This document shows, piece after piece, positions 6,282 through 27,400 of a DNA stretch of 64,000 bases. The stretch is from a virus. Made by a program: the position numbers and the translations under genes. Within the stretch, counting starts at the first letter, position 1. Each line of letters starts with the position of its first letter. Where the stretch lies: IMG/VR virus record IMGVR_UViG_3300008267_000027, positions 1-64,000 of that record; one strand, written 5' to 3'. A model generated the notes under the pieces. That model did no database searches, was not told the origin of the DNA, and saw nothing but the letters and a program-made list of their open reading frames with translations.

Positions 6282-6307
6282 TAATATTTCCTATGAGACT
6301 ATGAGAG

Positions 6308-6337
6308 AGGGGGACAAATTGTCCCCTTCTTTTTTTA
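6308..6337 (+). terminator. Strong rho-independent terminator
   Basis: An inverted repeat GGGGACAA (6310-6317) and TTGTCCCC (6319-6326), giving a GGGGAC/GTCCCC stem with a 5-base loop, is followed at once by TTCTTTTTTT. It lies 28 bases after the stop of the abundant structural gene. Confidence 0.92.
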
Positions 6338-7408: not shown

Positions 7409-8785
7409 ATGACTCCTATTAAATCTAACTTAAATAAGGATAATTGTTCTCCAATATCCTCTAATTGTGTCCTATGGCAAGGACCTGATATTTCATGTAT
7501 TGGTCTGTGTTCAGGTGATACAGTTTCTGAGGTGACGTATAAACTAGCTGTAGAAATATGTGCTATAAAAGAAGAACTAGGGCTGTCAGATTTAGATATC
7601 AAATGTTTAGTTGATAACTGTCTAACATGTCCAGATCCTGAAAAAACTTTAGGAGTGGTATTGCAGCTTTTAATTAATAAAGTTTGTAATATTCAAGAGA
7701 TTGTTGACCAGTTTGGAGCAGGGTCTGCTGATGAAGTGGAAGTTAGACTTGCTCAATGTTTTTTAGTTGACTTTACAGACAGCAATGGAGATATTACAAA
7801 CCCAGTTCCTGTATCGAGTTATGTTCAAAAAATAGCACAAAAAATCTGTTCAATTCTTACAAAACTAGATGACTTAGATGGTTCTATTGTAAGTTTAGGT
7901 GATGATATTACAAATCTAGAAACAAGAGTTGATACTCTTGAGAATGCTGGTGAATTAACTATTGTTCCTACATGTACGGGTACAGCAGTAGCTACAGCAA
8001 TTGATGTAGCTGTATTTAACTTAGAACAAAAGTTTTGCAATCTTCAAACTGTTACAGGTCTCCCTGAAGAACTTATTTTAGTATTAGATAAAGAATGCAA
8101 GTTTTCAACACCTCCAGGATATGTTGCTAGTTTAGCTACTCCAGGAACAAGCTTGTGGAATCCTAATGATTTATCTTCTACAATTGCTGATACACTTAAT
8201 AAAATGTGGTTAGCAATTTGTGACTTAAGAGGTGCTGTTAAATTTATACAAGATTCATGCTGTCAAATTAGTTGTGATGATCTAATTGTTGACTTTGATG
8301 TTAAACGTACAGTGGATGATCAAGGTAATCTTATTCTTAAATTGTTTTTCTTTCCTAAGACTAACATTCCAGGTACATGGTATGATTGTGATCAAACACC
8401 TAATGCAATTCAACCTTATGGATTCCAAGGAACTAAGTTTACAGTAACTGATACTTTTGGTAATCAATTTGTTCAATATGTACAGCTTAGAGATCAAACG
8501 CTTCAAACTGGTGTATTAAACGATCCTGCATACTATAATGATGGATATATATTTGAGATTAGCAATAGTGCATTAGATCAGTCTACAGACTTTAGTATTG
8601 ATTCTAATGTATGTATCACTGACGGAACTAATAAGTGTGTCAAGTGTTTAGTTAAAAATGTACCTTATGTTCCAGTTGCTTCAGGATGTTGTACAATTAC
8701 TGCTCTTGAAGATGAAGTGACAATTGTCTACAGATATTGTCCTGTACAGATTACAACAACTACAACCACTGTTTCAATAGGATAA
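7409..8785 (+). CDS. Fibre-like virion protein with Cys module and Thr tail (458 aa)
   Basis: The N-terminal 45 residues carry the recurring module NCVLWQGPDISCIGLCSGDT that is shared with the genes at 9879, 10112 and 12145. Residues 45-270 are a series of helical segments of the type L..vl..L..kvC.iq, which suggests a trimeric coiled stalk. A beta-rich C-terminal domain follows and the protein ends in a six-Thr run (QITTTTTTVSIG). No enzymatic motif is seen. It is most likely a head or tail fibre or the collar to which the Thr-rich adhesins attach. It is the first gene of the adhesin run and has its own candidate promoter. Confidence 0.6.
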   Translation: MTPIKSNLNKDNCSPISSNCVLWQGPDISCIGLCSGDTVSEVTYKLAVEICAIKEELGLSDLDIKCLVDNCLTCPDPEKTLGVVLQLLINKVCNIQEIVDQFGAGSADEVEVRLAQCFLVDFTDSNGDITNPVPVSSYVQKIAQKICSILTKLDDLDGSIVSLGDDITNLETRVDTLENAGELTIVPTCTGTAVATAIDVAVFNLEQKFCNLQTVTGLPEELILVLDKECKFSTPPGYVASLATPGTSLWNPNDLSSTIADTLNKMWLAICDLRGAVKFIQDSCCQISCDDLIVDFDVKRTVDDQGNLILKLFFFPKTNIPGTWYDCDQTPNAIQPYGFQGTKFTVTDTFGNQFVQYVQLRDQTLQTGVLNDPAYYNDGYIFEISNSALDQSTDFSIDSNVCITDGTNKCVKCLVKNVPYVPVASGCCTITALEDEVTIVYRYCPVQITTTTTTVSIG

Positions 8786-9240: not shown

Positions 9241-9873
9241 ATGGCAACTTGTTTAGTAACAGTAGGTGGTACATATGGGGAAGTGCTTATTAAGTATGTA
9301 GACTCAGGGTCTACACCACATTCTTTGATTAGTGGTCCTGGAACTTTCTATTTAGATGATACTGGTTCTGATTACACCTATAGTGTAGTTTATGGAGATG
9401 TTACTGTAACATCATTATGTATTACTTTTACAAATCTACCATATGTTTGCTATGTTATAAATTGGGGAAATAGTTTAGGTAAATCCTTACTATCTCAATT
9501 TAAAGTTCAATCTATCATTGCTGGTAGCTTAGAATATAGCTTGTATATACCAACAGACATGGTTTTGTCTAGTACTTTAGCACATGCTATAAATAATATT
9601 GGAGATTATAATATCACTTGTCAATCTTTTAAACACCCTAATCAAATTATAGTTAAAACACTTACGCCTGATGTTCCGTATATTAAACTTAGCGATAGTG
9701 CTACTAGTTTTAATATATATTTAAAAGGTCAAGCGGTTGCTAATTGTGTACCATCAGATTTTGAACAAATGGATGTATGGCCTAATATACCAGCAACTAC
9801 AACCACAACTAGCACTACTAGTACAACAACATCATCAACAACAACTACCACTACTGTGGTACCAATACCATAA
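9241..9873 (+). CDS. Adhesin/fibre protein with C-terminal Thr tract (210 aa)
   Basis: Residues 1-180 are beta-rich with alternating hydrophobic strands and three or four cysteines, with no signal peptide. Residues about 185-206 are a nearly pure Thr/Ser tract, followed by VVPIP. The start ATG at 9241 lies 11 bases after the frameshifted upstream frame. The Thr tract resembles linkers that, in the downstream genes, join separate domains; here it is terminal, so the gene could be a shortened relative of those proteins. A structural role in a fibre is inferred from context. Confidence 0.55.
   Translation: MATCLVTVGGTYGEVLIKYVDSGSTPHSLISGPGTFYLDDTGSDYTYSVVYGDVTVTSLCITFTNLPYVCYVINWGNSLGKSLLSQFKVQSIIAGSLEYSLYIPTDMVLSSTLAHAINNIGDYNITCQSFKHPNQIIVKTLTPDVPYIKLSDSATSFNIYLKGQAVANCVPSDFEQMDVWPNIPATTTTTSTTSTTTSSTTTTTTVVPIP
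9794..9855 (+). repeat. Thr/Ser-codon tract (low-complexity ACN repeat)
   Basis: About 62 bases made almost only of ACN and TCN codons, encoding the C-terminal Thr/Ser run of the 210-residue fibre protein. The reading frame on the opposite strand is open only because of this composition. Confidence 0.75.
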
Positions 9874-9878
9874 TAATT

Positions 9879-10112
9879 ATGTCTTGTACATGTATTAATC
9901 AATGCGGAGATCTTTGCACATGTTGTGTTCCAGATGGAGTTACAAACCTTCCTCAATGTGAACCATTAGAAGGTCCTTGTGCTGGTACAGAAATAGATAT
10001 CAATTGTATTGTTTATGATGGTCCAAGTTATGAATGTTTAGGAATACAAACTGGTGATAATTTACTAGATGTATTAATGATTATTTTTCACAGGTTAAAC
10101 CCTTTATGTTAA
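9879..10112 (+). CDS. Small Cys-rich protein with the shared GP-x-x-C module (77 aa)
   Basis: The N-terminus is Cys-rich (MSCTCINQCGDLCTCC) and is followed by INCIVYDGPSYECLGIQTGD plus a helix (LLDVLMIIFHRL). The second half is the same module seen near the start of the fibre genes at 7409, 10112 and 12145, here as a free-standing protein. It overlaps the next gene as TAATG. A small anchoring or capping subunit for the adhesins is a reasonable inference. Its start is supported by the closeness of the ATG (five bases) to the previous stop. Confidence 0.6.
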   Translation: MSCTCINQCGDLCTCCVPDGVTNLPQCEPLEGPCAGTEIDINCIVYDGPSYECLGIQTGDNLLDVLMIIFHRLNPLC

Positions 10113-12124
10113 TGTGTCCTATTTGCGGTTGTAATAGAAGTATAAATACATGTTCTTGTGCTTACCTTCCTTGCACAACAACTACTACTATAGGGTTTAC
10201 GCAATATGACTGTGATGGTTCTCCAGCAGACTTAGCTATAGATTCTGAGTGTGTTGTGTATAGCAGTCCTTCTCTACCTTGTTTTGGTATATTACAAGGA
10301 TCTAGTTTTACTGAAATCATTACAGAACTTGTAGGACAAGCTGGTAATTGTACACCAAATCCTCCAGGTGCTACAACAACAACCACACGTCCTCCTACAA
10401 CTACAACAACGACCACACTACCTCCTTGCGTTGTATATAAAGTAACTAATACAAATCTTTTTGGGTCAAGTACTATTAGATACACCCCTTGTAATACAAC
10501 AAGTAATAGACCAGTAACAGTTGGTGCAATTCCTATATATATTTGTCATAATACAAATTATCCTGTTACTACTATATCAGGAAGTGTTCAGTTACAAAAC
10601 AGAGGTGAATGTAATGATCCTGCTCCGACAACTACTACGTCAACTACAACAGCTGCACCTGAAACAATCTGTTTTAAATTAAGAAATACATTTAGAAATA
10701 CATCTGTAGAAGTTGACTTTATTAATTTGTTAGGGGTTGCTGATACATTATCATTAGATCCTCTTGAGATTAGACATAAGTGTGCATTAAGTGTTACACC
10801 TACATATGGTCTTTTAATAGAACAACTTGGAGATTGTTTGTCTGGATGTGTCACTCCAACAACTACCACAACTAGTACGTCTACAAGTACAACTACAACG
10901 TCTACATCTACCACTACATCTACTTCTACTACCACTACAACAACACTATGTTCTGAACCTGAGTGCGCACGCGTGATGTTATCTGGTTCAGTAAAAGCGT
11001 ACACCTATGATTTCTGTAGTAATCAAACACAAGAAGTTGCAATACCAAACTTTAGTAGCATTGTTAACCATGGTATAGCTGTTAATAATGAATATTTATG
11101 GTCTATAAGATCTGGTAAGTTTTCTAGATGGGAACTTGATTATCTTCCATTCTCTGCAACATATGATGCTGATGTATTATATCCAGCAGGATTTAATCCT
11201 ATAAATCCAACATTTAATAATGGTATTGTTGCTAAAACTAATACAGGTCATACACTTATAGGATGGAATAATACTGATTTAGAGTTTGTTGAAATAAATG
11301 CTTCAGGACCTACAGCATCAATTACAAGCAAATTTGACTTTGGTACACCTTCATCACCTAGTGATCAAAGATACCCTATTGGTAATCCTTTGTATACAAC
11401 AACTGGTAAATTTATAACATTAAGTAGGAAAGTTAATGGTAGATACCACTTCACTCAGTTTGATTATGATGGTGTTCCAGGAACAATTGAAAATGATATT
11501 GACATAACTATATCAAATAAGGTACCTATTGCATTATTACAACCTACATGTAGCTGTGAATGTTCAATATATGTTCTTTACTATTCATATTCTCCTACAG
11601 TTGGTGGTGAGTGGACTCCTATTGGAAATCGTCTTTTGTATTCATTAAATCTTACAACAGGAGCTCTTACATTAGTGCAAACTCAGTTTGTTCCTTCTAG
11701 TATATTAGTTAATGGAGGTGGTGCTCAATTACCTGCATGCATGTTGTGTGATGGAGAAATATTCCCCACCACTACCACAACAACTGCTGCCCCAACTACT
11801 ACTACTACATCTACTAGTACAAGTACAACTACGACCACAACAGCTGCTCCTGCATATTTCTATTTTGCAGATGTTTATAACTGTCAACTACCATTTCCTC
11901 AGAACTGTATGAAACAAGGGGAAGCTATTGTGATGGGTGAATTTGGTGGACCATTAAGTATAGGATTATTTTATAATGAAACTGGTTCTTCACCTGGTCT
12001 AGGTCTTATATATGAAATTAAAGGGGTGGCACCTAATCAACAATTTGCAGTACAAGTTAGTGAGTTATTTGGATCATCAAGTTGTTCAGAAGCTTGTAGT
12101 TTTGTTTCAGAACCTGAACCTTAA
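10112..12124 (+). CDS. Modular Thr-linked adhesin with beta-propeller-like domain (670 aa)
   Basis: From the ATG at 10112 (TAATG overlap; an ATG at 10106 is in the same frame) the protein starts MCPICGCNRSINTCSC, then a short Thr run and the shared module (SECVVYSSPSLPCFGILQGS). A Thr/Pro linker, two Cys-containing beta modules of about 65-75 residues, and a long Thr/Ser tract follow. Residues about 283-545 look like a beta-propeller (repeated Y/W-x-hydrophobic blades, ending GGGAQLPACM). A further Thr tract and a C-terminal domain (FADVYNCQLPFP to the end) complete it. There is no catalytic motif. The architecture indicates an extended, receptor-binding virion fibre. The Thr tracts are plausible O-glycosylation sites given the glycosyltransferase genes at 17624-20274. 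Confidence 0.65.
   Translation: MCPICGCNRSINTCSCAYLPCTTTTTIGFTQYDCDGSPADLAIDSECVVYSSPSLPCFGILQGSSFTEIITELVGQAGNCTPNPPGATTTTTRPPTTTTTTTLPPCVVYKVTNTNLFGSSTIRYTPCNTTSNRPVTVGAIPIYICHNTNYPVTTISGSVQLQNRGECNDPAPTTTTSTTTAAPETICFKLRNTFRNTSVEVDFINLLGVADTLSLDPLEIRHKCALSVTPTYGLLIEQLGDCLSGCVTPTTTTTSTSTSTTTTSTSTTTSTSTTTTTTLCSEPECARVMLSGSVKAYTYDFCSNQTQEVAIPNFSSIVNHGIAVNNEYLWSIRSGKFSRWELDYLPFSATYDADVLYPAGFNPINPTFNNGIVAKTNTGHTLIGWNNTDLEFVEINASGPTASITSKFDFGTPSSPSDQRYPIGNPLYTTTGKFITLSRKVNGRYHFTQFDYDGVPGTIENDIDITISNKVPIALLQPTCSCECSIYVLYYSYSPTVGGEWTPIGNRLLYSLNLTTGALTLVQTQFVPSSILVNGGGAQLPACMLCDGEIFPTTTTTTAAPTTTTTSTSTSTTTTTTAAPAYFYFADVYNCQLPFPQNCMKQGEAIVMGEFGGPLSIGLFYNETGSSPGLGLIYEIKGVAPNQQFAVQVSELFGSSSCSEACSFVSEPEP
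10854..10947 (+). repeat. Thr/Ser-codon tract linker
   Basis: A run of ACN/TCN codons of about 94 bases encodes a Thr/Ser linker between the beta modules and the propeller-like domain of the 670-residue adhesin. Similar shorter tracts occur at about 10369-10425 and 11769-11849 in the same gene. Confidence 0.75.
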
Positions 12125-12144
12125 TAATAAAAATAGTAATATAA

Positions 12145-15100
12145 ATGTCTTGTAATTGTAAAAATACATTCCCAAATCAAACTTGTTGTTGTCCTAAAAC
12201 ACCAACTACTACCACTACGTTATCTCCTGAAGATTTAGCTAATCAAGAGTGTACACAAGTGTTTGGGTCAAGTTCTATAATTTACAATAATACATTATAT
12301 ACTAATTTAGGTTTACCTGATTGTTTAGGTATACGTCCAAATCCTACTATTACAGAAATCATCACTGCTATTGTTGGTACATTTCCAGAGTGTATTCCTA
12401 CAACTACAACCACTACAACAAGACCTACAACTACTACAAGTACAACAAGACCTGCTACCACAACTAGTACCACTACACAGTTTCCTTGTGTGAGTGGGGT
12501 GTGCCCTTCTGGTTATATTTGTGTTGATGATATATGTGTACCTAACATTTGTGATACAACTATAGATTGTCCTTCAGGTTATGTCTGTATCAATGGTACA
12601 TGTTTGCCAGCATGTGAAGATGATGTAGATTGCCCAAGTGGATATGAGTGTATAGATGGAGCATGTCAAATTCCTTGTGATGATGAAAACTGTCCTATAG
12701 GTTTTACATGCATTAATGGGGTTTGTGAACCATCACTTTGTAGCATTGATATAGATTGTCCTATAGGATTTATATGTGTTAATGGTAATTGTCAACCTGA
12801 TGATTGTGATGAATATGGAAACTGTCCTCCTGGATATATTTGTGTAGACGGTAATTGTATATCAGATGATTGTGATAATACTGTGGATTGTCCATCTGGT
12901 TATATCTGTATAAATGGTAATTGTGTACCTAATGTATGTGAGACAACTGTTGACTGCCCAAGTGGATACATTTGTATTGATGGTGAATGTCAACCAAATG
13001 TGTGCAATGAAGAAGTAGAATGCCCTAGTGGATACACTTGTGTAAACGGAACTTGTGTTCTTCTTAATTCACCTTGTAATTCATATTCTGTAAATACATC
13101 TGCAAATTGTACATATCAAACATATAATAATTTAGGGTCTAGTACTGATTTTGAAGCTCCTGAACCTACATGTGGTAACTATTTAGGAAACTCTGTTTGG
13201 TTTACAGCAATTGCACCTCCTAGTGGTCAACTTGTAATAAGTCTTCAAGCTGGTACAATTACAGATGCTGCAGTAGCTGCTTACACAGGATCATGTACAC
13301 TGCTTACTCAAATAGGTTGTTCAGATGATCAAAGTCCGCAAGCAATGATGCCTGAGTTGGTGTTAACAGGTTTGACACCAGGAGCAACTATTTTTATTAG
13401 AGTGTGGAGTTATGGTAATCAACAATCTGGTACATTTGGATTGTGTGTAATAGATCCTACATTGAATCCTTGCTCTATAACAGGTATAGCATCTGGTATA
13501 TCTTGTATAACTACAACAACAACAGTTCCACCTCAAGTGGTACCATCTTGTGGAGTTTTATACAACTCTTATTACTACTATGAAGAGGATGGTATTAAAA
13601 GAGGATCTACATTATACTATTATAATTTTAATACCAATACAGCAACAGTTCTCCCTGTACCTGGAGCGACAGGTCCTAACACACCAACTTATCTTGATAT
13701 AGCTAGTACAGCAAATAAACTTTGGTTTGTAGATACAGTAGGTTCTAAATTTATTGAATATGATATTTCATTATCACCGTGGAATGCAATATTTAGTCAA
13801 AACATACCATTCCCTGCAGGATTTGTATCCTCTGGAGGATTGTTTGCGATTAATAATAACACTCTTTTAGTTGTTAATGAAAATACAGGAACTCCTATTG
13901 TTTCAGAGTTTAATGTTTCAACCAATGTTATTACGCCTAAGTTTGCACTACCATCTAATAGAAAGGTTGCAGGTGATATTTTATTAACAACAAATAATAA
14001 ACTTATTGTTACTACTGCTAGTAAAACTACTAGTGACAGATGGATCAGTCAGTATAATTATACCACTTACACATTAGAGTTTGATAAGTCTATAAACATT
14101 GCTATACCAGGTCCTGCTATATCAAATCCATGGGGATTGTTTGAAACTGGTGGTAACATCTATATAATGGATAAGTTGACAGGTGTTTATAGAATAAACA
14201 AAACATCTCCTTATGCTATTACATTCATAGGCGTACCTACAGGGTCAAGTGTTCATGACACTATAATGGGAGCTTCTCAAACACGTAGTTGTATTACAGA
14301 TTCATTCACACCAAATATTACTACCACTACTAGTACGTCTACATCAACTACTACCACTTCTACATCAACTACAACTACTACAACAGAGGCTCCTTTTGTA
14401 GAGCAATCTCGCTCTATGAATGATTGGGAAATATTTTCTACTTGTGGTATAAATCCATCTGGTGTATGGGATGACCCTCCTGTACCATATGATAAAATAT
14501 TTATAGGTACAAGTAGTGAGCCTTGTGGTGCTTGCTCATGCATTTCATTTGTACATGGTTCAGCACAAGGTGACGATCCTTTAATTAAATCAGTTTGGGA
14601 AGCTAACGGTAACTGTAATGGTGAATGTTTTGTAAACTGTGCAGATAATTGGACCACTGTTAACTTAAATACAGACAGATATGCAAATGGTGATTTGATA
14701 CCTCAAGTAACAAACCCTACTACATGGGCTAACTTAACTACAGGAGCATGGTGTTACTATGCTAATAGTACAGCAAATGGTACTATTTATGGTAAACTAT
14801 ATAATCGTTATGCTTTAACAGACCCTAGAGGATTGCAGTTACCAGCTGGGTATAGACTACCTACTACAGTAGATTGGACAAATTTAATAAATTGTGTAGG
14901 TGGTCATGGATATTATCTACAAAAAATAAATGATCCATTATGGATATTCATTGATGAAAATGATAGACCTTATGGTGCTGCTCGTACTACTTTTAATGCA
15001 CTACCTGGTGGTTATAGATCAAGTTCAGGAAACTTTGCTGACATTGGAGATTATGCTCGTTTTTGGACACTTGATGGATTTACACGTGTTAGTTTGAGAG

Positions 15101-15180
15101 GAAGAGTCCCAGAGGGAGTTCAAACAAATGGTGGAATAAATCCTAAAACAGGACTATCAGTTAGATTAATACAAATTTAA
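12145..15180 (+). CDS. Mosaic adhesin: EGF-like repeats, surface domain, propeller, FISUMP (1011 aa)
   Basis: Domain order: a Cys-rich start and the shared module (residues 1-80, DCLGIRPNPTITEIITAIVG); a Thr linker (about 83-112); nine EGF-like Cys repeats (115-304, typically DCPSGYICINGNC); a domain at about 309-442 (NSVWFTAIAPPSGQLVIS, GLTPGATIFIRVWSYGN) resembling adhesin domains of secreted Bacteroidota proteins; a beta-propeller-like region (about 466-718); a Thr/Ser linker (about 725-750); and a C-terminal FISUMP-type domain (834-1011: NGDLIPQV, WCYYANSTANGTIYGKLYNR, LPAGYRLPT, LPGGYRSSSGNF). No signal peptide is seen, as expected for a virion protein. The Bacteroidota-type domains suggest capture from host surface genes. 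Receptor binding is inferred. Confidence 0.75.
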   Translation: MSCNCKNTFPNQTCCCPKTPTTTTTLSPEDLANQECTQVFGSSSIIYNNTLYTNLGLPDCLGIRPNPTITEIITAIVGTFPECIPTTTTTTTRPTTTTSTTRPATTTSTTTQFPCVSGVCPSGYICVDDICVPNICDTTIDCPSGYVCINGTCLPACEDDVDCPSGYECIDGACQIPCDDENCPIGFTCINGVCEPSLCSIDIDCPIGFICVNGNCQPDDCDEYGNCPPGYICVDGNCISDDCDNTVDCPSGYICINGNCVPNVCETTVDCPSGYICIDGECQPNVCNEEVECPSGYTCVNGTCVLLNSPCNSYSVNTSANCTYQTYNNLGSSTDFEAPEPTCGNYLGNSVWFTAIAPPSGQLVISLQAGTITDAAVAAYTGSCTLLTQIGCSDDQSPQAMMPELVLTGLTPGATIFIRVWSYGNQQSGTFGLCVIDPTLNPCSITGIASGISCITTTTTVPPQVVPSCGVLYNSYYYYEEDGIKRGSTLYYYNFNTNTATVLPVPGATGPNTPTYLDIASTANKLWFVDTVGSKFIEYDISLSPWNAIFSQNIPFPAGFVSSGGLFAINNNTLLVVNENTGTPIVSEFNVSTNVITPKFALPSNRKVAGDILLTTNNKLIVTTASKTTSDRWISQYNYTTYTLEFDKSINIAIPGPAISNPWGLFETGGNIYIMDKLTGVYRINKTSPYAITFIGVPTGSSVHDTIMGASQTRSCITDSFTPNITTTTSTSTSTTTTSTSTTTTTTEAPFVEQSRSMNDWEIFSTCGINPSGVWDDPPVPYDKIFIGTSSEPCGACSCISFVHGSAQGDDPLIKSVWEANGNCNGECFVNCADNWTTVNLNTDRYANGDLIPQVTNPTTWANLTTGAWCYYANSTANGTIYGKLYNRYALTDPRGLQLPAGYRLPTTVDWTNLINCVGGHGYYLQKINDPLWIFIDENDRPYGAARTTFNALPGGYRSSSGNFADIGDYARFWTLDGFTRVSLRGRVPEGVQTNGGINPKTGLSVRLIQI
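12487..13056 (+). repeat. Nine tandem EGF-like Cys repeats (about 63 bp each)
   Basis: Nine units of about 21 residues follow the pattern C-x4-5-C-P-x-G-[YF]-x-C-[IV]-[ND]-[GD]-x-C. The first lacks part of the leading spacing and the fourth and sixth are slightly different in length or residues (CPIGF, CPPGY). DNA identity between units is moderate, so the array is not a very recent expansion. Confidence 0.85.
14317..14391 (+). repeat. Thr/Ser-codon tract linker before FISUMP part
   Basis: A run of ACN/TCN codons encodes a Thr/Ser linker (TTTSTSTSTTTTSTSTTTTT) between the propeller-like region and the C-terminal part of the 1011-residue adhesin. A comparable linker lies at about 12397-12478 before the EGF-like repeats. 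Confidence 0.75.
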
Positions 15181-15197
15181 AATTAAGATATATTTAA

Positions 15198-17576
15198 ATG
15201 TCAAAACAAATATTCATACAAGTATCTGCTCCTCCAGGATCTGGACCATTTAATTTATATACAAATTTAGATTATGTAACTCCTTTTGCTAATGTAATTC
15301 TACCTCAGTTGACAGGGGGTTACTATGCTACAGTTGCTGATAATGTTACAATCATTAAAATTGAACCCACTGGTACATGCACCACTCCAATATATGTATC
15401 TATTGTATGCGATGTAACAACTACAACAAGTACATCTAGTACTACAACTACAACCATACCACCGACTACTACAACATCTACATCTTCATCTACCACTACT
15501 ACAACTACACATCCTCCTTGTATGCGTTATAGTGTAAGTCTTACATCAGGAGATGAATTGACATATTCATATACAAATTGTTTAAATCAGGATCAAATTA
15601 GAATTCTTACTGATCCTATTGTTTATTTTTGCGCATACTATCCACCAATTATATTGGATGGTGTTGGTGTTGTTGCTTTAGTATCAGTGTGTGGTGCTAC
15701 AACAACTACGTCATCTACTAGTTCAACTACAACTACTACAATACCAGGTTTAACAACTACAACTACAATACCTGGAACAACTACTAGTACATCAACAAGC
15801 ACTAGCACATCAACTACAAGTACTAGTAGTACAACCACTTCTACTAGTTCTTCAACTACAACAACTACTAAACCTATATATACAACTAGTACAACTTTAC
15901 CTCCTACTACAACTACTACAATTCCTGTAGGTACAACAACTACTTCAACTATATCTGGTAGTACTACTACCACCACTATACCAGCAAGCACTACTACAAC
16001 TACTACATTTGGAGGCACAACAACCACCACTACTGTAAAACCTTTACCTACTACTACAACTACTACAATAGCAACATCTCCTTATGATTGTACATGCTAT
16101 ACATTAAGTAGTGAGTCATTAACTGGAGCTGGGTATACTGTATTTGAATATGTAGATTGTGCAACTAGTCTTTTGACATTAACAGATGAAATTTTTAACA
16201 ATAGCGTTAATATTTGTGCTCAAACAGGAACTGTTGGTATTGATTTTAATAGTAAAGATGCTGAATGGAATATTCAATATACAGGAGGAACAGCTGCAGA
16301 ATGTAGTGAAACTGTAGATTGTAATCCTGTATTAAGTTGTACATGTCATACTATTGGTGTACTTCAACCAGGTAGAGTTAATTTTATATTTACGGATTGT
16401 AATAGTGAAGAGCAGACTATTCAAATAAATGTTGTAGAAGATGAATTTTTAAATTGGATACCCGTCTTTAATAATATATGTGTTGCTTCAGGTACAAGTA
16501 TAATTATTGGTAAAGTTACTGGAGACCCTGATACTATTGTAACTAATAATAATGTACCTTGTACAAATGGTGTAGAAGGTGACACATGCCTAAAATCTCA
16601 ATGTTATACTTTATATAATATAGGAGAAATTCCTGAAACAGGTACTTCTACAGTTACTTATACTTATTGGGGTGTTGATGGTATTTTCTATACACAAATA
16701 TTAAACTATCAAGATGTATTAACAGTTTGTTCACAAACTTATCCAGAGTTTACAGAACAAGGATATGGGTTAGGTCAAATTCAAACTTCTGGAGAATATT
16801 GTGATGTGGAAATACCATGTGAACCTGTTAAATATTGTAATTGTGTAGTTGTAACAGTTAAAGGAGATCCTGTGTCTGTAACATATAAATCATGTGAAAC
16901 AGGTATTGATACTACTGTAACTCTTGGAAATGGGTATGATTCAGTATTAGCAGCGTGTATGAATGGTTATCCTACTATTGGTGCACATGGTATTGGTACT
17001 GAAGTTATTGTAGATGTATCAAAAGATTTGTGTTCTACAAATGCAGATTGTAATACATGCAACTGTGTTACAGTTACTCAGGCTAAACCTAGTACAGCAA
17101 TTGGAGTTTATTATAAAGAGTGTGGCACATTTGATAATGCTTATGGTTTAGTGCCAGAGCTTGCACTAAAAACTACATTTACAGCATGTATGTCTAACGC
17201 ATATGCTCCATTAATCTGGAATGAAACAGATAATGTAGAAGCAATAGAAAATGATGATTATGTTATAAGTACATCTGGTTCATGTCTTACTACTAATGAT
17301 TGTTTACCTACCACTACAACTACAACTAATGCTGAACAAACATATTATTACTATGAGGTAATACCATTTGATGGAGAAACCTGTGATAATATAGGTGAGA
17401 CAACTTACATAATGAGATCTACTACACCTATTTCATTTGCATTTGTCAATGCTGATGGTGGTTGTTATCGAATTATTGGTGTAGTTAGTGGTCCAACTTA
17501 TAGCCTAACATATAGCGGATCAGGTGGTAATGTTCCATGCTTCGGTTTTGGACCCATCCTTGACATGGTTTGTTAA
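15198..17576 (+). CDS. Thr-tract fibre protein with five Cys beta repeats (792 aa)
   Basis: A roughly 75-residue N-terminal beta domain is followed by a Thr/Ser linker (about 73-104) and a small Cys domain (about 105-165). A mucin-like region of about 125 residues (167-291) has Thr runs broken by IPG, LPPT and KPI. Residues about 298-704 contain five Cys-bounded beta repeats of roughly 75-85 residues, each opening with a CxC or QCY pair and containing a YxxC- or YxDC-type strand and a central C. A short distinct domain ends the protein. No catalytic motif is present. The two glycosyltransferase genes begin 47 bases downstream, so this protein is the closest candidate substrate. A long extended fibre or spike is the most likely role. 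Confidence 0.65.
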   Translation: MSKQIFIQVSAPPGSGPFNLYTNLDYVTPFANVILPQLTGGYYATVADNVTIIKIEPTGTCTTPIYVSIVCDVTTTTSTSSTTTTTIPPTTTTSTSSSTTTTTTHPPCMRYSVSLTSGDELTYSYTNCLNQDQIRILTDPIVYFCAYYPPIILDGVGVVALVSVCGATTTTSSTSSTTTTTIPGLTTTTTIPGTTTSTSTSTSTSTTSTSSTTTSTSSSTTTTTKPIYTTSTTLPPTTTTTIPVGTTTTSTISGSTTTTTIPASTTTTTTFGGTTTTTTVKPLPTTTTTTIATSPYDCTCYTLSSESLTGAGYTVFEYVDCATSLLTLTDEIFNNSVNICAQTGTVGIDFNSKDAEWNIQYTGGTAAECSETVDCNPVLSCTCHTIGVLQPGRVNFIFTDCNSEEQTIQINVVEDEFLNWIPVFNNICVASGTSIIIGKVTGDPDTIVTNNNVPCTNGVEGDTCLKSQCYTLYNIGEIPETGTSTVTYTYWGVDGIFYTQILNYQDVLTVCSQTYPEFTEQGYGLGQIQTSGEYCDVEIPCEPVKYCNCVVVTVKGDPVSVTYKSCETGIDTTVTLGNGYDSVLAACMNGYPTIGAHGIGTEVIVDVSKDLCSTNADCNTCNCVTVTQAKPSTAIGVYYKECGTFDNAYGLVPELALKTTFTACMSNAYAPLIWNETDNVEAIENDDYVISTSGSCLTTNDCLPTTTTTTNAEQTYYYYEVIPFDGETCDNIGETTYIMRSTTPISFAFVNADGGCYRIIGVVSGPTYSLTYSGSGGNVPCFGFGPILDMVC
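15415..15510 (+). repeat. Thr/Ser-codon tract
   Basis: Almost pure ACN/TCN codons encode the first Thr/Ser linker of the 792-residue fibre protein, interrupted by one isoleucine-proline-proline step. Confidence 0.7.
15698..16071 (+). repeat. Long mucin-like Thr tract (about 370 bp)
   Basis: This is the longest Thr/Ser-coding stretch in the window: about 125 codons, mostly ACT/ACA/ACC/ACG with TCN, punctuated by short motifs such as IPG, LPPT, KPI and ISG. The reverse strand is open here only because it reads Val-rich complement of Thr codons. Confidence 0.8.
16089..17310 (+). repeat. Five divergent Cys beta-domain repeats (about 220-260 bp each)
   Basis: Units start near 16089, 16338, 16602, 16836 and 17058, each with a CxC or CY opening, a conserved central C in an ICA- or ACM-like context, and a closing C before the next unit. 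Related single units occur in the adhesin gene at 10112 (openings CVVYKV and ICFKLR), so the module has spread between neighbouring genes. Confidence 0.6.
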
Positions 17577-17623
17577 AATTGATTAATTTATGTAACTTAG
17601 ATTATAAACCAAAAACCAACAAC

Positions 17624-18544
17624 ATGAAATTTATTTGTGCACAACCTGCCATAAACTACTATACATGGCAGGTGGAAGTGATGATTAACAACTTTATTAA
17701 AAATGGGATAAATCCTAATGACATACATATACTGTGTGCATATTGGGATGAGGTTCCTGAAAACTGGAGAGTAATTCAAAAAACTTACAATACAGTTGGA
17801 TTTTATTTTTATAAAGATACCAGACAAGACCAGTCTTATATTCCCTCTATATACTTTAATATTTTAAAGCAGCATATACAAGCTAATCCTGAATTAGAAA
17901 AGACTGCTTTATTTCTTCATGACTCTGATATTATATTTACAAAACCTGTAAATTTTAGTAGTATGGAGCATGATAAGATTTGGTATCTAAGTGATACTGT
18001 TGGGTATATAGGGACTCAATATATTCTAACAAAAGGTGAAGAAGTTTATAGAGGAATGTGTAATGTAATAGGAATAGACCCTTTGATTCCTAAACTATTA
18101 AATAGTAATTCTGGCGGTGCTCAACATATAGTAAAAAATACTACATATGAGTATTGGGATAAAGTTGAGAAAGACTCTATAAAACTTTATCAACACTTTA
18201 ATGATACAGAACCTGAGTGGAAGGGTGAAGGTTATCCTATTCAGAAATGGACAGCTGGTATGTGGAGTCTATTATGGAATGCATGGTTGTTTGGTCATGA
18301 AACTAAAGTGGATAAAAGACTAGATTTCTGTTGGGCTACAGATCCAATGCACAGATGGGATGAAGCACCTATATTTCATAATGCAGGTGTAACAGATGAT
18401 AGAAAAGATCTTTTCTTTAAGGGAGCTTATATAGATAAAAATCCTTATACAGAAGTTAAACTAGATATGTATAGTAAAGACAAGTGTTCTTATAATTATG
18501 CAAAAGAAATTATTGAGACGTCTAAAAAAACATGTCTGTTATGA
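17624..18544 (+). CDS. Putative glycosyltransferase, GT-A-like (306 aa)
   Basis: The chosen start is the ATG at 17624, preceded by AACCAAAAACCAACAAC; an upstream TTG in frame overlaps the fibre gene and is unlikely. The protein begins MKFICAQPAINYYTWQVEVM. The segment KTALFLHDSDIIFTKPVNF contains D100-S-D102, the DxD motif by which GT-A enzymes bind a metal and a nucleotide sugar. A late HNAG motif (residues about 262-265) may be the usual C-terminal His. There is no membrane segment, so it acts in the cytoplasm. It overlaps the next gene by an ATGA junction. Directly following Thr-rich adhesin genes, it is a good candidate for glycosylating them. Exact family and sugar are unknown. Confidence 0.7.
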   Translation: MKFICAQPAINYYTWQVEVMINNFIKNGINPNDIHILCAYWDEVPENWRVIQKTYNTVGFYFYKDTRQDQSYIPSIYFNILKQHIQANPELEKTALFLHDSDIIFTKPVNFSSMEHDKIWYLSDTVGYIGTQYILTKGEEVYRGMCNVIGIDPLIPKLLNSNSGGAQHIVKNTTYEYWDKVEKDSIKLYQHFNDTEPEWKGEGYPIQKWTAGMWSLLWNAWLFGHETKVDKRLDFCWATDPMHRWDEAPIFHNAGVTDDRKDLFFKGAYIDKNPYTEVKLDMYSKDKCSYNYAKEIIETSKKTCLL

Positions 18545-20274
18545 GTTTAGAAATACTAAGCGGTATTTATGGAAGTGCTAGAAATGGGTCTAAAGATGTA
18601 ACAGATATACTTAGATCGTATATTAAAAATGATAGTTTAAATCTTTATGTATCTAATGGGATTTTTGGTGATCCTTGTCCTGGACACTTTAAATCTTTAT
18701 ATCTTAAGTATAAAGAACACGGTGTGTATAAAGAAAATTCTTGGGAAGAAGAGTCTAGTCTTAGATTGAACTCATTTAAAAAGACATTTTCTGTAATAAT
18801 AGGGTTTAGAAATTCTATTCCAGATAGACTTAGAAATTTAGTATACACTATTAAATATTACAAAAAGCACTTACCAGATTGTACTGTTATAGTAGTTGAA
18901 CAAGATAGTAGGGCCGATTTAAGTGAGGTGTATGATTACATAGATAAGTATGTTCATATAAATACAGGAAATGATTTTTATTCAAGGTCTTTAGGTTTTA
19001 ATCAAGGTTTTAATGTAAGCAATAGTGATTATGTTATTTTAGCTGATGGGGATTGTTTATTAGATGTTAACTTTTTAAATAATATACACGACTATTATGC
19101 TGAGTTTGATAGCTTGTTTGTAATACCTTATGTAAATCCTGTGTATTATTTATCTAAAGAAGAGACTGAAAGTTTTATTTTAAATAATGAAGACAACACA
19201 GGAAGTAATAAACATAGAAAAACAAACGCTTTAACCAATGCTTCTGGTGGTGTTGGTATAATAAGTTCTGATAATTTTTATCGTGTAGGGGGGTTTGATC
19301 AAAGATTTAGAGGATGGGGTGTTGAAGATGACGCTTTTCACAATAAGTGTGTAATGTTTAATTTAACATCCATACGATTAGGTGGGCAAATGGTACATCT
19401 ACATCACGCTGATTCTTTTAAAGGAAATGATAACTATGGTAATAATGTATCTATTTATGATAATGACTACGGTAAAAATAACGCTATAGATATTGTAAAT
19501 AGAATAGGGTTTACACATTTATCAAAAAATGTTGATGTTAGTAGAATAAAAATAGTGACAAACTCTCAACATGACGAGTTGTTAGAACTATCAAAACAAT
19601 TTTATTCTGATTTACCTTTTGAAATTATAAATGTATCTGGTAAAACAGGAATGTATGGGTATCAGTTCTTTGACCATGTTATAAAAACATTTACAGATGT
19701 AGATTGGATAATCTATATTGATGAGGATTGTTTTATAACAAATAAGAGTGCATTAATGGATCTTTTATATTATCAAATTAGACATAATATAGGATTTTCA
19801 GGGATGCCTGATGGAGGGGTTATAAGTCATAGATTTCACAACCCTGTTTCTATAAATGCATTCTTTACTATAATTAACTTAAAAAAATTAAGAGAGGAGA
19901 CTTTGAATCTAAAAGGATACTCTCACTATGCTAAAGATTTAGATAAATTTATTCCATATAACTTAATTAAAAAAGGATATGAGAATACCCCTGTAACAGA
20001 AAAAATAATTAATGAAGGTAACATACCATATGGTGTATCATATGATAACTTTGAACCTTATTATTCTATATTTTTCTCAGCATTAAGAAAAGGATTAACG
20101 CCTTTATATTTAGATGCTTATGATTATTCTGGAGATGAATATAGCACAGTGTTAAAAAATCATTTAGGTGTTGAGTTTGCTTATCACTCATGGTTTTCTA
20201 GAGGTTGGAATGATCCATATCATAAAGAAAGAATTAAAAAACTGATTGACTATTGTTTAACAATAAAACAATAA
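18541..20274 (+). CDS. Two-domain glycosyltransferase (GT2/GT7C-like, 577 aa)
   Basis: The ATG at 18541 forms an ATGA overlap with the upstream stop; an in-frame ATG at 18532 would overlap by 13 bases. Domain 1 (about 75-310) is GT2-like: FSVIIGFRNS, DxD as LAD169-G-D171, then the GT7C-like GGVGIISSDNFYRVGGFDQR and GWGVEDD (258-264). Domain 2 (about 335-570) is a second GT-A-like domain with YID394-E-D396. Two catalytic modules in one protein suggest that two sugars are added in succession, or by different linkages. Together with the preceding gene it forms a small glycosylation cassette at the end of the adhesin run and just before a terminator. Confidence 0.8.
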   Translation: MSLEILSGIYGSARNGSKDVTDILRSYIKNDSLNLYVSNGIFGDPCPGHFKSLYLKYKEHGVYKENSWEEESSLRLNSFKKTFSVIIGFRNSIPDRLRNLVYTIKYYKKHLPDCTVIVVEQDSRADLSEVYDYIDKYVHINTGNDFYSRSLGFNQGFNVSNSDYVILADGDCLLDVNFLNNIHDYYAEFDSLFVIPYVNPVYYLSKEETESFILNNEDNTGSNKHRKTNALTNASGGVGIISSDNFYRVGGFDQRFRGWGVEDDAFHNKCVMFNLTSIRLGGQMVHLHHADSFKGNDNYGNNVSIYDNDYGKNNAIDIVNRIGFTHLSKNVDVSRIKIVTNSQHDELLELSKQFYSDLPFEIINVSGKTGMYGYQFFDHVIKTFTDVDWIIYIDEDCFITNKSALMDLLYYQIRHNIGFSGMPDGGVISHRFHNPVSINAFFTIINLKKLREETLNLKGYSHYAKDLDKFIPYNLIKKGYENTPVTEKIINEGNIPYGVSYDNFEPYYSIFFSALRKGLTPLYLDAYDYSGDEYSTVLKNHLGVEFAYHSWFSRGWNDPYHKERIKKLIDYCLTIKQ

Positions 20275-20286
20275 AACATATAAAAA

Positions 20287-20349
20287 GGAGGTTTGTTGGT
20301 TTCCTCCAATAACAATCCCCCCGATGTTTCTACATATAGGGGGTTTTTT
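20287..20349 (+). terminator. Double-hairpin terminator ending the adhesin-glycosylation run
   Basis: A first stem pairs GGAGG (20287-20291) with CCTCC (20303-20307). A second, stronger one pairs CCCCC (within 20317-20322) with GGGGG (20339-20343), with an inner ATGT/ACAT, and is followed by TTTTTT (20344-20349). The rest of the 164-base gap up to 20439 is AT-rich and may hold a promoter near TATATACT (20397), but no clear -33 element is seen. Confidence 0.85.
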
Positions 20350-22292: not shown

Positions 22293-22967
22293 ATGGCAAC
22301 TACTATTGGAGAAGTAATTTCTAGAATCCGTAACCAGCTTAAAGCTGTTAAACAAGATCCCTTCTTAACAGACAGATACATATACAGTCTTATATCTAAG
22401 CATGCTCATTGGTTGATGAAGAGAGAAGACTCTAAGAATAAACTGATGAAGTTTAGTTCTGTAATACAAACTCTTGGAAATATAGAACTAATTGAGATTG
22501 ATAAAGTGGAAGCATGCTGCACAAATGCAAAATCAAACTGCACAATTAAAAGAACTAAAGAGAAACTTCCTGCTTTCATGCAAGGATACTATGGACCTTT
22601 GATTAGGTCTGTTTCTTCTTTAGATGGTTCTCAGTTGGTTAAAGCAACCAACCCTAGTATTTATGTGTCAATGACCCACTCTACAAGTTTTAAATACAAC
22701 AAAACAAAATACTTTTGGTATTTGAATGACTATCTTTATTTTCCAGATTTAGACTGGGATGCTGTAAAGATAGAGGGTATATTTGAAGATGATATTACAT
22801 CTTTTAACTGTGATCCTAATGATGATTGTACAGTGAGACAAGAACAACTGTTTAATGTTCCTGAGTATCTACATGGAGAAATTGAAAGTAATGTAATTAA
22901 AGACTTCGGATTAACTCTTCAAATACCAGGTGATAAAACTTCTGATAAACAACATATACTAAGATAA
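22293..22967 (+). CDS. crAss-like ring (connector) protein (224 aa)
   Basis: The protein starts with a helical motif typical of connector proteins (TIGEVISRIRNQLKAVKQDP, FLTDRYIYSLISKHAHWLMK), followed by a beta-rich body with a C-C-x5-C cluster around residues 71-78 and a C-terminal helix. This layout of an N-terminal helix pair, a beta domain and a C-terminal helix matches ring proteins that stack under the portal in crAss-like virions. It is ten bases after the preceding gene and two bases before the next. Family assignment is by motif memory; the exact ring position is undetermined. Confidence 0.65.
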   Translation: MATTIGEVISRIRNQLKAVKQDPFLTDRYIYSLISKHAHWLMKREDSKNKLMKFSSVIQTLGNIELIEIDKVEACCTNAKSNCTIKRTKEKLPAFMQGYYGPLIRSVSSLDGSQLVKATNPSIYVSMTHSTSFKYNKTKYFWYLNDYLYFPDLDWDAVKIEGIFEDDITSFNCDPNDDCTVRQEQLFNVPEYLHGEIESNVIKDFGLTLQIPGDKTSDKQHILR

Positions 22968-22968
22968 A

Positions 22969-23199
22969 ATGGCAACAAATTACAAAACTTATATTATAAT
23001 TGACTTCACCCATGATGAGTATGGGTTCGTCAATAATAACTCTGATATCAAAAAGTTTTATGCTGATTTAAATATCAACATAGCAACTCTTCCTACAGAT
23101 AGCAATGGTTATCTGAGTCAAGCTATTTTGGTAAATCCTAAAACTAAAGAGGAGTCTAAAATATTATTTAAATATGGCACAGCATTGTGCATTAATTAA
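22969..23199 (+). CDS. Small hypothetical protein between ring genes (76 aa)
   Basis: The 76-residue protein (MATNYKTYIIIDFTHDEYGF at the start) has a beta-alpha-beta look and no cysteine clusters apart from the final CIN. It begins two bases after one ring gene and ends five bases before another, so it is almost certainly translated with them. No family is recognised. A small clamp or assembly factor for the connector is possible. Confidence 0.55.
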   Translation: MATNYKTYIIIDFTHDEYGFVNNNSDIKKFYADLNINIATLPTDSNGYLSQAILVNPKTKEESKILFKYGTALCIN

Positions 23200-23204
23200 T
23201 TACA

Positions 23205-24038
23205 ATGACTGAATTAAAATATAAAACATTTAATCAACTTTTAAGTGAGGTGTTAATTGATTTTTACACTTTTAACTTAGAGGGTATGATTGATCCAGCT
23301 CAGCTTATTAAAGTAACTTTAAGAGTTAACTATGAGTTGGGTCTTAGAATTCATAAATCTAAAGATGTCATACTAGAACTTGATCATGGTAAATGTAAAT
23401 TACCAGATGATTTTTATGTTTTAAATTATGCTAATCTTGTAGGTAAATATACTGTACAAGACCCAGTTATATCAGGTTCTCACGTAGAAGATGTTATTTT
23501 AGAGACAGTTCCTGAAAATGGTTCATGCTGTAAAGTGAATGCGTGCAAATCAAGTTGCGGTCAATATTATAACTTAGTTCAAAGTTTAAGATCTGAAGTA
23601 AGAACTTATGAGGAGTTTTATCCTTTACAAGTTGGTAAGGCTAAGGTAGTATCTGAAGATTGCCCAAATCTCCAAGTTAAGTCTACAAATCAAGCACAAA
23701 TTAGAGATGGTTTTATTTTTACTAATCTTAATGAAGGTAAAATCCATATGAACTATATAGGTAATATGGAAGATGATGAGGGTAATTTGTTAGTATTAGA
23801 TCACCCTTTGATTAATGAATTTTATGAGTATGCTCTAAAACAAAGAATTTTAGAAAACCTTTTAATCAATGGTGAAGATGTAACATCAAGAGTTCAACTT
23901 ATAGAACAAAGAATGAGAGCTGCTAGAAATAATGCACTATCTCTAGTAAACACTCCAGACTATGCTGAAATGCAAAAACTTTGGGAAACTAATAGAAAAG
24001 CAATGTATGGAAAATACTACAACATGTTTAAGCGATAA
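23205..24038 (+). CDS. crAss-like ring (connector) protein (277 aa)
   Basis: The start (MTELKYKTFNQLLSEVLIDF, then IDPAQLIKVTLRVNYELGLR) and the following KLPDDFYVLNYA match a second ring protein type that I recall directly upstream of the muzzle gene in crAss-like phages. The central region is beta-rich with a Cys cluster (C109, C110, C115, C119), and the C-terminal 80 residues are long helices. Its end overlaps the small metalloprotease frame that follows. It probably forms part of the connector between portal and tail barrel. Confidence 0.7.
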   Translation: MTELKYKTFNQLLSEVLIDFYTFNLEGMIDPAQLIKVTLRVNYELGLRIHKSKDVILELDHGKCKLPDDFYVLNYANLVGKYTVQDPVISGSHVEDVILETVPENGSCCKVNACKSSCGQYYNLVQSLRSEVRTYEEFYPLQVGKAKVVSEDCPNLQVKSTNQAQIRDGFIFTNLNEGKIHMNYIGNMEDDEGNLLVLDHPLINEFYEYALKQRILENLLINGEDVTSRVQLIEQRMRAARNNALSLVNTPDYAEMQKLWETNRKAMYGKYYNMFKR

Positions 24039-24408
24039 ACCTGCAAAATACTCTAAGAGTATAAAATTGCCAACATACAATTGTGAGCTTATGGTTATAA
24101 TTACCAGTAAGCTAAAAGATGATGCAACTAAGATATATAAAAAATATAAGATTAAAGATGATGATGAGGATGGTGAAAGTGAAGGAATAGTTATTAGTCC
24201 AGATATAGATAAGTATTTTTTAATGATTGATTTAAAATACCTATCTCATAATACACTAGCCCATGAGATATATCATGCTACAGTGAGAATAACAGAGGAT
24301 AGAGGTATTGTAGAAGAAGAAAGTCAAGCATGGTTATGTGGACATCTCACTGGTGTTATATATAAATTTTTAGATAAAAAGACATTGACAATTAAACATG
24401 GCGGATAA
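24007..24408 (+). CDS. Small zincin metalloprotease-like protein (133 aa)
   Basis: The motif LAHEIYHATVRI gives the zinc-binding H86-E87-x-x-H90, and the following EEESQAWLCGHLTG supplies a downstream Glu (probably E105) as third ligand, as in minimal phage zincins. The start is uncertain: ATG at 24007 overlaps the ring gene by 32 bases, while the conserved-looking part begins near KLPTYNCEL (residue 20). It also overlaps the muzzle gene by 11 bases at its end. Placed between ring and muzzle genes, it may mature a tail protein or be carried in the virion. The active-site motif is clear, the role is inferred. Confidence 0.7.
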   Translation: MENTTTCLSDKPAKYSKSIKLPTYNCELMVIITSKLKDDATKIYKKYKIKDDDEDGESEGIVISPDIDKYFLMIDLKYLSHNTLAHEIYHATVRITEDRGIVEEESQAWLCGHLTGVIYKFLDKKTLTIKHGG

Positions 24409-27400
24409 CACACAAAATACTAATACTAACACAACTAACAGTTTTAATAAAGGATTAATAAAAGATCCTGCTGATAGTTTTGTTGGAGAAGGTTTATGGA
24501 CACATGCAAGAAATGCTGTTAATAATTCTACAGAGGGTCAGCTAGGATTATTAGGTAATGAACCTGCTACCACTCTTTGTAAGTATGTACCTTATACAAT
24601 AATAGGTTCTATATATTTAGGTGGGGAAGACTGGATTATATTTTCAACAGACAACTTTAATTCAGAGATAGGTAAGTTTAATGAGAAAGATTGCACATAT
24701 TCTAAATTAGTAAACGCTCCTTGTTTAAACTTTAAAACTTCTAACTTAATAAAGGCTGCAGTAAAATCTAATTTTGATTGCACGAGTTCTGTATACTGGG
24801 ATGATGGTATAAACCCCACGAGAGTTTTAAATGTAGATAATATTCCATATAAAGAAAAACCTAGAAAGAATACAGGAACAGAATGTTATGTAGCAGAATA
24901 TACTACTGATTTAGATTGTGAAGCCTTAAGACTTGCACCATTATTAAAAACACCTTGCGTTAATCTTTCAAAGGGGAAGACTGGCGGTATAATGCCTAAT
25001 GGTTCATACCAAGTTGTAATAGCTTATTCTATTAACGGTATTAAAGTTACTGATTACTTTTTACCATCTAACATACAATCTTTGTTTAGTCACTCAGATG
25101 TGTCTGGATCATTAGAGGTTGAAATAGAAAGTATAGATGAAGATTTTGATGAGTTTGAACTTGTAGTTATTAGTTATGTAAAAGAGAATATTACAGCTAG
25201 AAAAGTTGGGAACTATTCAACAAGAACTAAAAAAATATTCATTGACAAACTGGATGCTGCAGCTGTTGTAGTAGGTGTAGATAGGATACCTTTAAGAACA
25301 CCTTCTTATGAAAAATCAGATGGACTATATGATTTAAATGATTACTTGATAAGAGTGGGTATATACACCAAACCTGATTTTAACTACCAACCTCAGGCTA
25401 ACAAGATAGAAGCAAAATGGGTTGCTGTAGAAGTTCCTTCAAATTATTATGTTAAAGGAGGTAATGAAGTATCTTATTTGAGAGATGAAGTGTATTCATT
25501 TTTTATTAGATGGGTGTATAACACTGGTGAAAAATCAGCAAGTTATCATATTCCAGGAAGAGCTTCTCAAGGTAGAGATACATCTAATGCAGGTGGTACT
25601 GATGCAATAGAAACAAGAGAGGGTGGTGGACTAGTTAAAAAATGGCAAGTAAGTGATACATCTAAAATTTTAAATAAGTCAACATCTACATTAGAAGGTG
25701 TTGGTACTATTGTAGCACAAGGTGAAATGGCTTACTGGGAAAGCACAGAAAGATACCCAGATAATAATCCTGCAATATGGGGTGATTTGTGTGGTAAACC
25801 TATTAGACATCATAAAATGCCTGATAACAGCACCACTCATATTTATAATCTTGAGAATGATGCTATAGTATTATTAGGTGTAAAGTTTGAGGGTATTACA
25901 CATCCATTAGATAATGATGATAATCCAATATCATCTATAGTAGGTTATGAAATACTAAGAGGATCTAGAGAAGGTAATAAAACTGTTATTGCTAAAGGAC
26001 TTCTTAGTAATATGGCAGAGTATGATATTGATCCTGATGTATCAAGTAGAAAAGGTTTATATGCAAACTATCCTTTTAATGATCTTTCTGCAGACCCTTT
26101 CCTATCTAAGAAACCTGTAAAGGGTGGTTGTGAAGGTAAAGGATATACATCAATGGGAAGTTTTAGAAATGACTTATTTAGCTTTCACTCCCCAGATACA
26201 CAGTTTAGAGATCCTTTCTTAAACCCATATGAATTAAAAATACATGGTGAAGTTTTTGGAACAGTGGAAGGTAGCTTTAGTCCTGTATATAGACATCCAC
26301 AACATAAACTCATAAAAGACTTTGCTGTATTTTGTGCAGCTATTATAGGTGTTGGTGTAGGTATACTATCTATTAAAGGTAGAACTACAACAGGAACAGC
26401 AAAAGATCCTAAAAGAAGTCTTGATACAGGTTTAACAATGACAATTGGTGGTTTTGCAAATGGTCAATTAGTTAATACTCCATTAGGAGGATCATTAGGT
26501 GAAGGTACAATTAATACTTCTCAGACAACTGAACAACTTGTACCTACTGAAAATAGAACTTTGATGGCAGCCCAAGCTGCATTCACTTTTACATACTTTA
26601 TGGGAGCTGGTATGGATGAGGCGTTAAGAACAATAAGATTTATGCTTCCTTATCAGCAGTATGCTTATCAATACAATGCTCATGGATTATATAATAACTA
26701 TATAACTCCTACTCCTGGAAATATTAGACGTAAAGTTGTAGATGCTCAATATATTAATCCATATATTCAAGATTTTGGACCTACTGAAAGAATTAATAAT
26801 CTATTTAGAAGTCGGTTTGTAGCTTTAAGAATAGAAGATACATTAGAGAACCCATCCACAAAAGACAACTCTAGAGTTACTATTGGTATGCTTTCTCAAT
26901 GGGATAATCCTACAAGACCTTTTTCAAGAACAACATCTTCACACTATAGTTCTCTTAAAATACAATTACCTAGTCAATATGGACAACTTGATGGTATAAT
27001 GCAAGTACCTGTTTCAGGATGCACATATTACACTTCTGGTGAAAAAGATATAAGATATACTTCTCCTGTATTGTTTGGAGGAGACACCTACATAAACAGA
27101 TATACTGAAAAAAATGCATTCTTTTTCTTTAATGACTGGTTGATGGGACAACCTGATGGTTTTACATATGACTATATGCAGTATGTAAATGTCCCCTATC
27201 CTAGATATTGGATGGATAGCAGTGATTATGATTCTTCTAGATTAATTGCTCCATTAGCTAAGATAGCAGTTGGTGTATTTGGAGGAGCTGCATTAGGACA
27301 ACTTATAGGAAATATAATTCAAAATGCAGCAAGTAGTGCAGCAGGAACTATTGGAGGAACTGCAGGTAATATTGTAGGAACAGCTACAACAATTGGTGGT

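Follow-up and report, generated by a model that had tools for sequence, protein, structure and literature searches.

Mycobacteriophages Che8, Corndog, and Myrna glycosylate their virions with phage-encoded glycosyltransferases (Freeman et al. 2023, cited here after PMC12619734 and PMC12363180). In capsid as well as tail-tube subunits, the glycans are located at the C-terminus, and they shield the particle from antibodies (PMC12619734; PMC12363180). We have analyzed a window of 64,000 nt, the whole stretch of DNA considered here, from the 87,174 b IMG/VR record IMGVR_UViG_3300008267_000027. In this window, four consecutive genes for proteins with threonine/serine (Thr/Ser) tracts are followed by the genes of two glycosyltransferases, GT1 and GT2. 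We propose that poly-Thr tracts in virion proteins are O-glycosylated by GT1 and that variable partner enzymes elaborate the sugar; the probability of this reading is estimated at roughly 85%. An initial annotation had suggested that the phage glycosylates its own virion proteins, and both the co-occurrence of GT1 with tracts and their presence and absence in orthologues argue for this suggestion.

Apparently, the GT1 system works like that of the mycobacteriophages, using a separate enzyme family. The phage-encoded enzymes of mycobacteriophages act on capsid and tail-tube proteins at their C-termini, as GT1 is predicted to do. Che8 gp108, gp109, and gp110 are not detectably related to GT1, each yielding a probability below 1% in an hhalign comparison with the GT1 profile; the C-terminal half of gp108 looks like a methyltransferase. 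Furthermore, the Che8 glycosyltransferase genes lie near the genome end whereas GT1 is located among structural genes, and the Che8 major capsid protein (MCP) and major tail protein (MTP) have no poly-Thr tract. Mucin-type O-glycoproteins share a dense Thr/Ser acceptor region with the tract proteins; however, GT1 shows no match to GT27 (ppGalNAc-T), and the system described here is phage-encoded and predicted to be cytoplasmic, with an almost pure poly-Thr acceptor. A link of phage poly-Thr tracts to a glycosyltransferase was not found in the literature searched, with many subscription papers outside its reach.

A scan of IMG/VR revealed 163 contigs with GT1 relatives, 80 of which were retrieved for analysis. 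A separate search of genome contigs gave matches with an alignment query but none with the GT1 of the window alone. A tract protein was encoded in 60 of 67 GT1 loci with enough upstream sequence, and in 47 of the 67 by the gene directly upstream. Control loci were chosen by an equally specific poly-acidic pattern; none of their 931 genes contained a tract, as compared to 113 of 1323 genes in GT1 loci. When loci were made non-redundant and a looser run criterion was used, tracts were present in 51/56 GT1 loci and in 4/80 controls (Fisher p ~1e-26), and the co-occurrence across related genomes by which the initial annotation had wished its idea to be judged was thus observed. Several criteria are given because the stricter one (9 of 10 residues) missed split tails such as TTTTTTRPTTTTTTT.

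Cultured phages and prophages showed the same association. GT1 is encoded among head and tail genes in most of the cultured phages examined, and in those of Gram-positive hosts the tracts form tails at the C-termini of the major capsid protein and the tail-tube protein. PHROG matches assign the tailed proteins to phrog_840 and phrog_10 (major head) and to phrog_238 and phrog_14018 (major tail). In Enterococcus phage phiFL2B, the MTP encoded directly upstream of GT1 ends in a Thr tail. Tract proteins are also encoded near or beside GT1 in Lactobacillus phages Iacchus and iLp84, Staphylococcus phages PT94 and DH5, Arcanobacterium phage TPWB06, Enterococcus phages VPE25, 4995_1, and Planchet, and Chryseobacterium phage MA9V-3.

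Orthologues with and without GT1 were compared. Among 14 IMG/VR relatives of the phiFL2B MTP (phrog_238, 64–86% identical), Thr tails were present in 3/3 proteins accompanied by GT1, whereas 11/11 from records entirely lacking GT1 end soon after ...GETTGDY... and are tailless (exact p = 1/364, assuming independence). A scan of viral sequences with an MTP alignment was dominated by the tract pattern itself and found no relatives. The GT1-positive Coetzeevirus R3.3 carries tails on both MCP and MTP; its relatives Bassarid, phiJL-1, and ATCC8014 possess neither GT1 nor MCP/MTP tails, and neither GT1 nor a tail was present in Streptococcus Javan47 and Bacillus 049ML001. Overall, 0/16 GT1-negative relatives were tailed. 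Lacticaseibacillus-type loci found via their MCP were all GT1-positive, with an MCP tail in all of them except L395, where the gene is apparently frame-disrupted. Such joint presence and absence is expected if the tail is the acceptor of GT1, and would otherwise be hard to explain.

Some tails showed additional features. In prophages L378–L394, MCP and MTP of one prophage often have an identical tail ending (TTTTTTSHA), reminiscent of a tag that can be transferred between proteins. In VPE25 (L087, 6735–6880) and Planchet (L406, 4765–4900), the 3' end of the MCP gene is overlapped in the -1 frame by ~45 codons encoding a tract (PTTTTTTTVKPTTTT...); in Planchet, a canonical CCCAAAA slippery site precedes the MCP stop codon. 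This arrangement suggests that programmed frameshifting may put the Thr tail on a minority of capsid subunits in these two phages. In TPWB06 (L090, 6700–6930), the MTP has a short Thr tail, and a longer tract ORF (open reading frame) overlaps it in a different reading frame, which would be compatible with two tail lengths produced by a frameshift.

The four consecutive Thr/Ser-tract genes of the window, already noted by the initial annotation, are real ORFs, all on the plus strand; tract residues were counted as those in Thr/Ser runs of ≥5. ORF and tract scans identified the first gene (9241..9873) as encoding a 210-aa protein with a 20-residue C-terminal tract (TTTTTSTTSTTTSSTTTTTT). The second (10106..12124) encodes a 672-aa multidomain protein, in which tracts with 76 residues in runs separate the domains. 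Domain search and tract scan characterized the third product (12145..15180) as a 1011-aa multidomain protein with 53 tract residues, several Cys-rich CPSGYxCxxGxC repeats (DUF7107/Dickkopf-like), and a Fib_succ_major domain at the C-terminus (E 9e-27), fitting a putative surface adhesin. The fourth gene (15198..17576; ORF and tract scan) encodes a protein of 792 aa, whose tract region is the longest of the four. Its 125 tract residues, first described as one tract of about this length, are the sum of all runs and not continuous: the densest stretch, at about residues 168–290, is interrupted by IPG/KPIY-type spacers, and the longest pure run has 31 residues. A protein comparison aimed at domain shuffling reported no mutual similarity among the four products. 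The designation of the genes as fibre genes draws on their position in the tail-ring module and on the adhesin-like domains. The proposed acceptors are virion proteins by PHROG identification in the relatives and presumably so in the window, where ring and muzzle genes lie close by. The remainder of the 87,174 b record contains only a trivial TSSTTT and a 6-residue run in the short C-terminal tract ITTTTTTVSIG of a 458-aa protein (7409..8785, plus strand; ORF and tract scan), a possible minor acceptor of glycosylation.

Within the tracts, Thr codons are mixed (ACT 97, ACA 96, ACC 24, ACG 8) and identical neighboring codons are slightly rarer than expected (0.22 observed vs 0.27); therefore, the tracts look maintained at the protein level. 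This codon mixing disfavors DNA slippage or a simple microsatellite as their origin. It also speaks against the distinctly unlikely alternative that the tracts are mere flexible or recombination-prone linkers and that GT1 and GT2 alter host surface glycans, causing superinfection exclusion or a capsule change. The tracts are indeed located between domains, and glycosyltransferases of temperate phages are known to change the host serotype (PMC12619734); however, GT1 lies within or beside structural genes in most phages examined, and neither linkers nor host modification explain why C-terminal tract tails on capsid and tail-tube proteins are present only with GT1.

GT1 (17624..18544, plus strand), a predicted poly-Thr O-glycosyltransferase of 306 aa, was originally listed from a TTG codon at 17570. 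Because its homologues begin at MKFICAQ, the ATG at 17624 is most likely the real start. GT1 belongs to phrog_4417 (E 7.1e-79, profile positions 1–291 of 293), which is annotated as unknown function and whose VPE25 copy is labeled prophage pi2 protein 34; no role for this family was found in the literature searched. Across 17 members no Pfam glycosyltransferase family matched at E 0.1, and no PDB chain matched GT1 at E 1. An AlphaFold model computed with 50 relatives reached a pLDDT (predicted local distance difference test) of 95. Foldseek identified the UGGT catalytic domain, LARGE1, XXYLT1, alpha-1,3-galactosyltransferase, LgtC, and glycogenin as being among the nearest solved folds; these are retaining enzymes of GT24, GT8, and GT6. 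According to the model, GT1 has a GT-A fold with a DxD motif and is GT8/GT24-like. It shares fold and motif with LgtC, glycogenin, XXYLT1, LARGE1, and the UGGT catalytic domain, but differs from them in having no Pfam glycosyltransferase match, a TM (template modeling) score of only ~0.5, and 7–13% identity.

Residues D100, D102 (DxD), H252, G255, and K266 are invariant from crAss-like phages to Enterococcus and Arcanobacterium phages; at the level of sequence, the latter three (HNAG...K) recall the C-terminal HxxGxxKPW-type motif. In the BFVD library, clearly similar models were those of LP65 Orf49 and of a protein from an uncultured member of the Caudovirales. The LP65 record describes Orf49 as resembling prophage pi2 gene 34; two genes away it lists a structural protein detected by 2-D/MS (mass spectrometry). 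A phylogenetic tree of GT1 contained a well-supported clade from phages of Gram-positive hosts and a second clade in which the window GT1 groups with its relatives from IMG/VR and with the Chryseobacterium phage.

GT2 (18541..20274, plus strand; ~577 aa) consists of an N-terminal GT2/GT7C-type domain and a C-terminal GT-A-like region (DEDC). The order of a GT-A-like and a GT2/GT7C-like enzyme given by the initial annotation was thus borne out by the fold model and domain searches. Since the GT1 stop codon and a GT2 start codon overlap as ATGA (18541–18544), the translational coupling also claimed for the two genes is plausible. Relatives of GT2 were found only in L006, L005, and L011 among the loci compared, and an AlphaFold model built from two sequences was discarded (pLDDT 34).

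The 58 genes located one or two places behind GT1 included at least 10 methyltransferases and at least seven GT2-family enzymes, in addition to FkbM, Fringe-like, GT11, GT34, and hexapeptide-transferase matches; control genes taken from these loci at a distance of several genes showed isolated glycan-tailoring matches only. GT1 is fused to a methyltransferase in L038, L046, and L047. Fusions to radical SAM/SPASM, which unusually join radical chemistry to glycosyltransfer in one protein, were observed in L048 (9992–11989), L056, L057, L058, L062, L063, and L079. Pfam was run on L048, L038, and L046; the remaining fusions were read by sequence similarity. Because GT1 is constant while its partners vary, these data suggest that GT1 may initiate the glycan and partner enzymes diversify it. 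The GT2 of the window fits one such variable partner, predicted to extend the glycan.

Very improbably, a host enzyme or a second phage enzyme initiates the glycan and GT1 merely extends it, or GT1 targets another residue of the same proteins. Other glycosyltransferases do adjoin GT1, or adjoin tract genes without GT1, but the neighbors of the constant GT1 are variable or missing, and the structural modules of phiFL2B, iLp84, and R3.3 have no other annotated glycosyltransferase beside GT1. Glucosylation of DNA is a known role of phage glycosyltransferases (PMC12619734), but action of GT1 on phage DNA or another non-protein target is extremely unlikely, as it leaves the association with poly-Thr tails unexplained. 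Moreover, most annotated phages have GT1 next to virion genes rather than genes of nucleotide metabolism.

Several points weigh against our proposal that GT1 glycosylates the tracts. Its support is comparative and structural throughout, namely gene order, tracts, predicted GT-A fold, co-occurrence, orthologue presence/absence, and tailoring neighbors, from which we infer catalysis, sugar identity, acceptor residue, enzyme order, and benefit. At a TM score of only ~0.5, donor and mechanism of GT1 can therefore not be read from structure. Tracts were not found nearby in 5/56 non-redundant GT1 loci (L021, L032, L052, L063, L081); the L081 record has tracts elsewhere and the other four are fragments. 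Many loci share ancestry, so the formal p-values overstate independence. Furthermore, only 8/50 contigs found solely by a poly-Thr DNA pattern clearly encode GT1 (one further, weak match was disregarded); none of 50 poly-acidic contigs does. Thr-tract phages without such enzymes, which according to the initial annotation would refute its idea, thus exist in part, although most of these contigs are fragmentary records and GT2-family enzymes are enriched in those without GT1. Among GT1-negative tract contigs of ≥30 kb, 7/17 encode an enzyme whose GT2-family match exceeds the Pfam cut-off vs 0/21 controls (one-sided p ~0.0015, hand-computed). Because GT1 is rare and GT2-family enzymes are enriched in poly-Thr contigs, part of the tracts may be modified by different enzymes, and part may carry no modification. 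GT1 is a strong predictor of tracts; tracts are a weak predictor of GT1. In GT1-negative poly-Thr loci (alignment A8), one neighbor of a tract gene encodes a PF11397 GlcNAc-type glycosyltransferase (E 4.5e-36), possibly another tract-modifying family.

We propose that the module produces and sugar-coats virion surface proteins. GT1 would be a GT-A enzyme of the cytoplasm that, like the GT8/GT24 enzymes, probably depends on a metal and retains the anomeric configuration, moving a sugar from a host nucleotide-sugar onto Thr (and Ser) hydroxyls in poly-Thr tracts; GT2 would then lengthen this sugar. Acceptors in this phage would be the tract linkers between domains of the four tail-associated, adhesin-like proteins, and in other phages the C-terminal tails of major capsid and tail-tube proteins. 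A likely benefit is that glycosylated tracts form extended, protease-resistant stalks, while the variable glycan may alter the particle surface. The initial annotation had put forward stiffening of the fibres, shielding from proteases, or binding to carbohydrate-associated surfaces as conceivable purposes.

We lean slightly towards a wider interpretation as a widespread phage code for protein glycosylation, in which one conserved glycosyltransferase family recognizes grafted homopolymeric Thr tracts anywhere, exchangeable tailoring enzymes diversify the glycan, and programmed frameshifting in the capsid gene sets tail stoichiometry in some phages. Grafting of tracts on capsid, tail tube, and fibres, and tailoring by glycosyltransferases, O-methyltransferases, and fused radical SAM enzymes, as parts of this code, appear a little better than evenly likely. 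The proposal provides a testable function for the unannotated phrog_4417, members of which occur in crAss-like phages as well as in those infecting Enterococcus, Lactobacillus, and Staphylococcus. In phages that can be cultivated, a poly-Thr tail together with GT1 would allow virion glycosylation to be predicted from the sequence. If capsids and tails are indeed glycosylated, this would matter for the stability of the particle, its recognition by the immune system, and its adhesion, and GT1 is possibly a simple tool for adding sugars to a short Thr tag.

The source phage belongs to the Crassvirales because tail ring proteins 1 and 2 (CrAss_Ring_2, E 1e-21, and CrAss_Ring_1, E 2e-9; 22293..24038, plus strand) and the crAss muzzle protein (crAss_MUZ, PF25731, E 7.5e-26; 24398..29197, plus strand) are encoded just downstream of the module. 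The four tract genes, GT1, and GT2 lie in the tail region of this phage, between these genes (22293–29197) and a weak Ring_3/4-like gene (3809–4504), whose match is under the curated cut-off. A pattern scan detected a terminator-like hairpin upstream of the module (6303..6333, plus strand). It listed none after GT2, where transcription had been claimed to terminate, but folding energy revealed a terminator-like hairpin with a run of six U at ~20314..20345 (plus strand; minimum free energy -12.6 kcal/mol, z -1.96). The Fib_succ_major protein was also considered as target of a diversity-generating retroelement and rejected, with no repeat >14 nt for 14781–15180 in the whole record. Additionally, the window contains a single ORF of 5174 aa (41872–57396), followed by one of 2196 aa (57403–63993).

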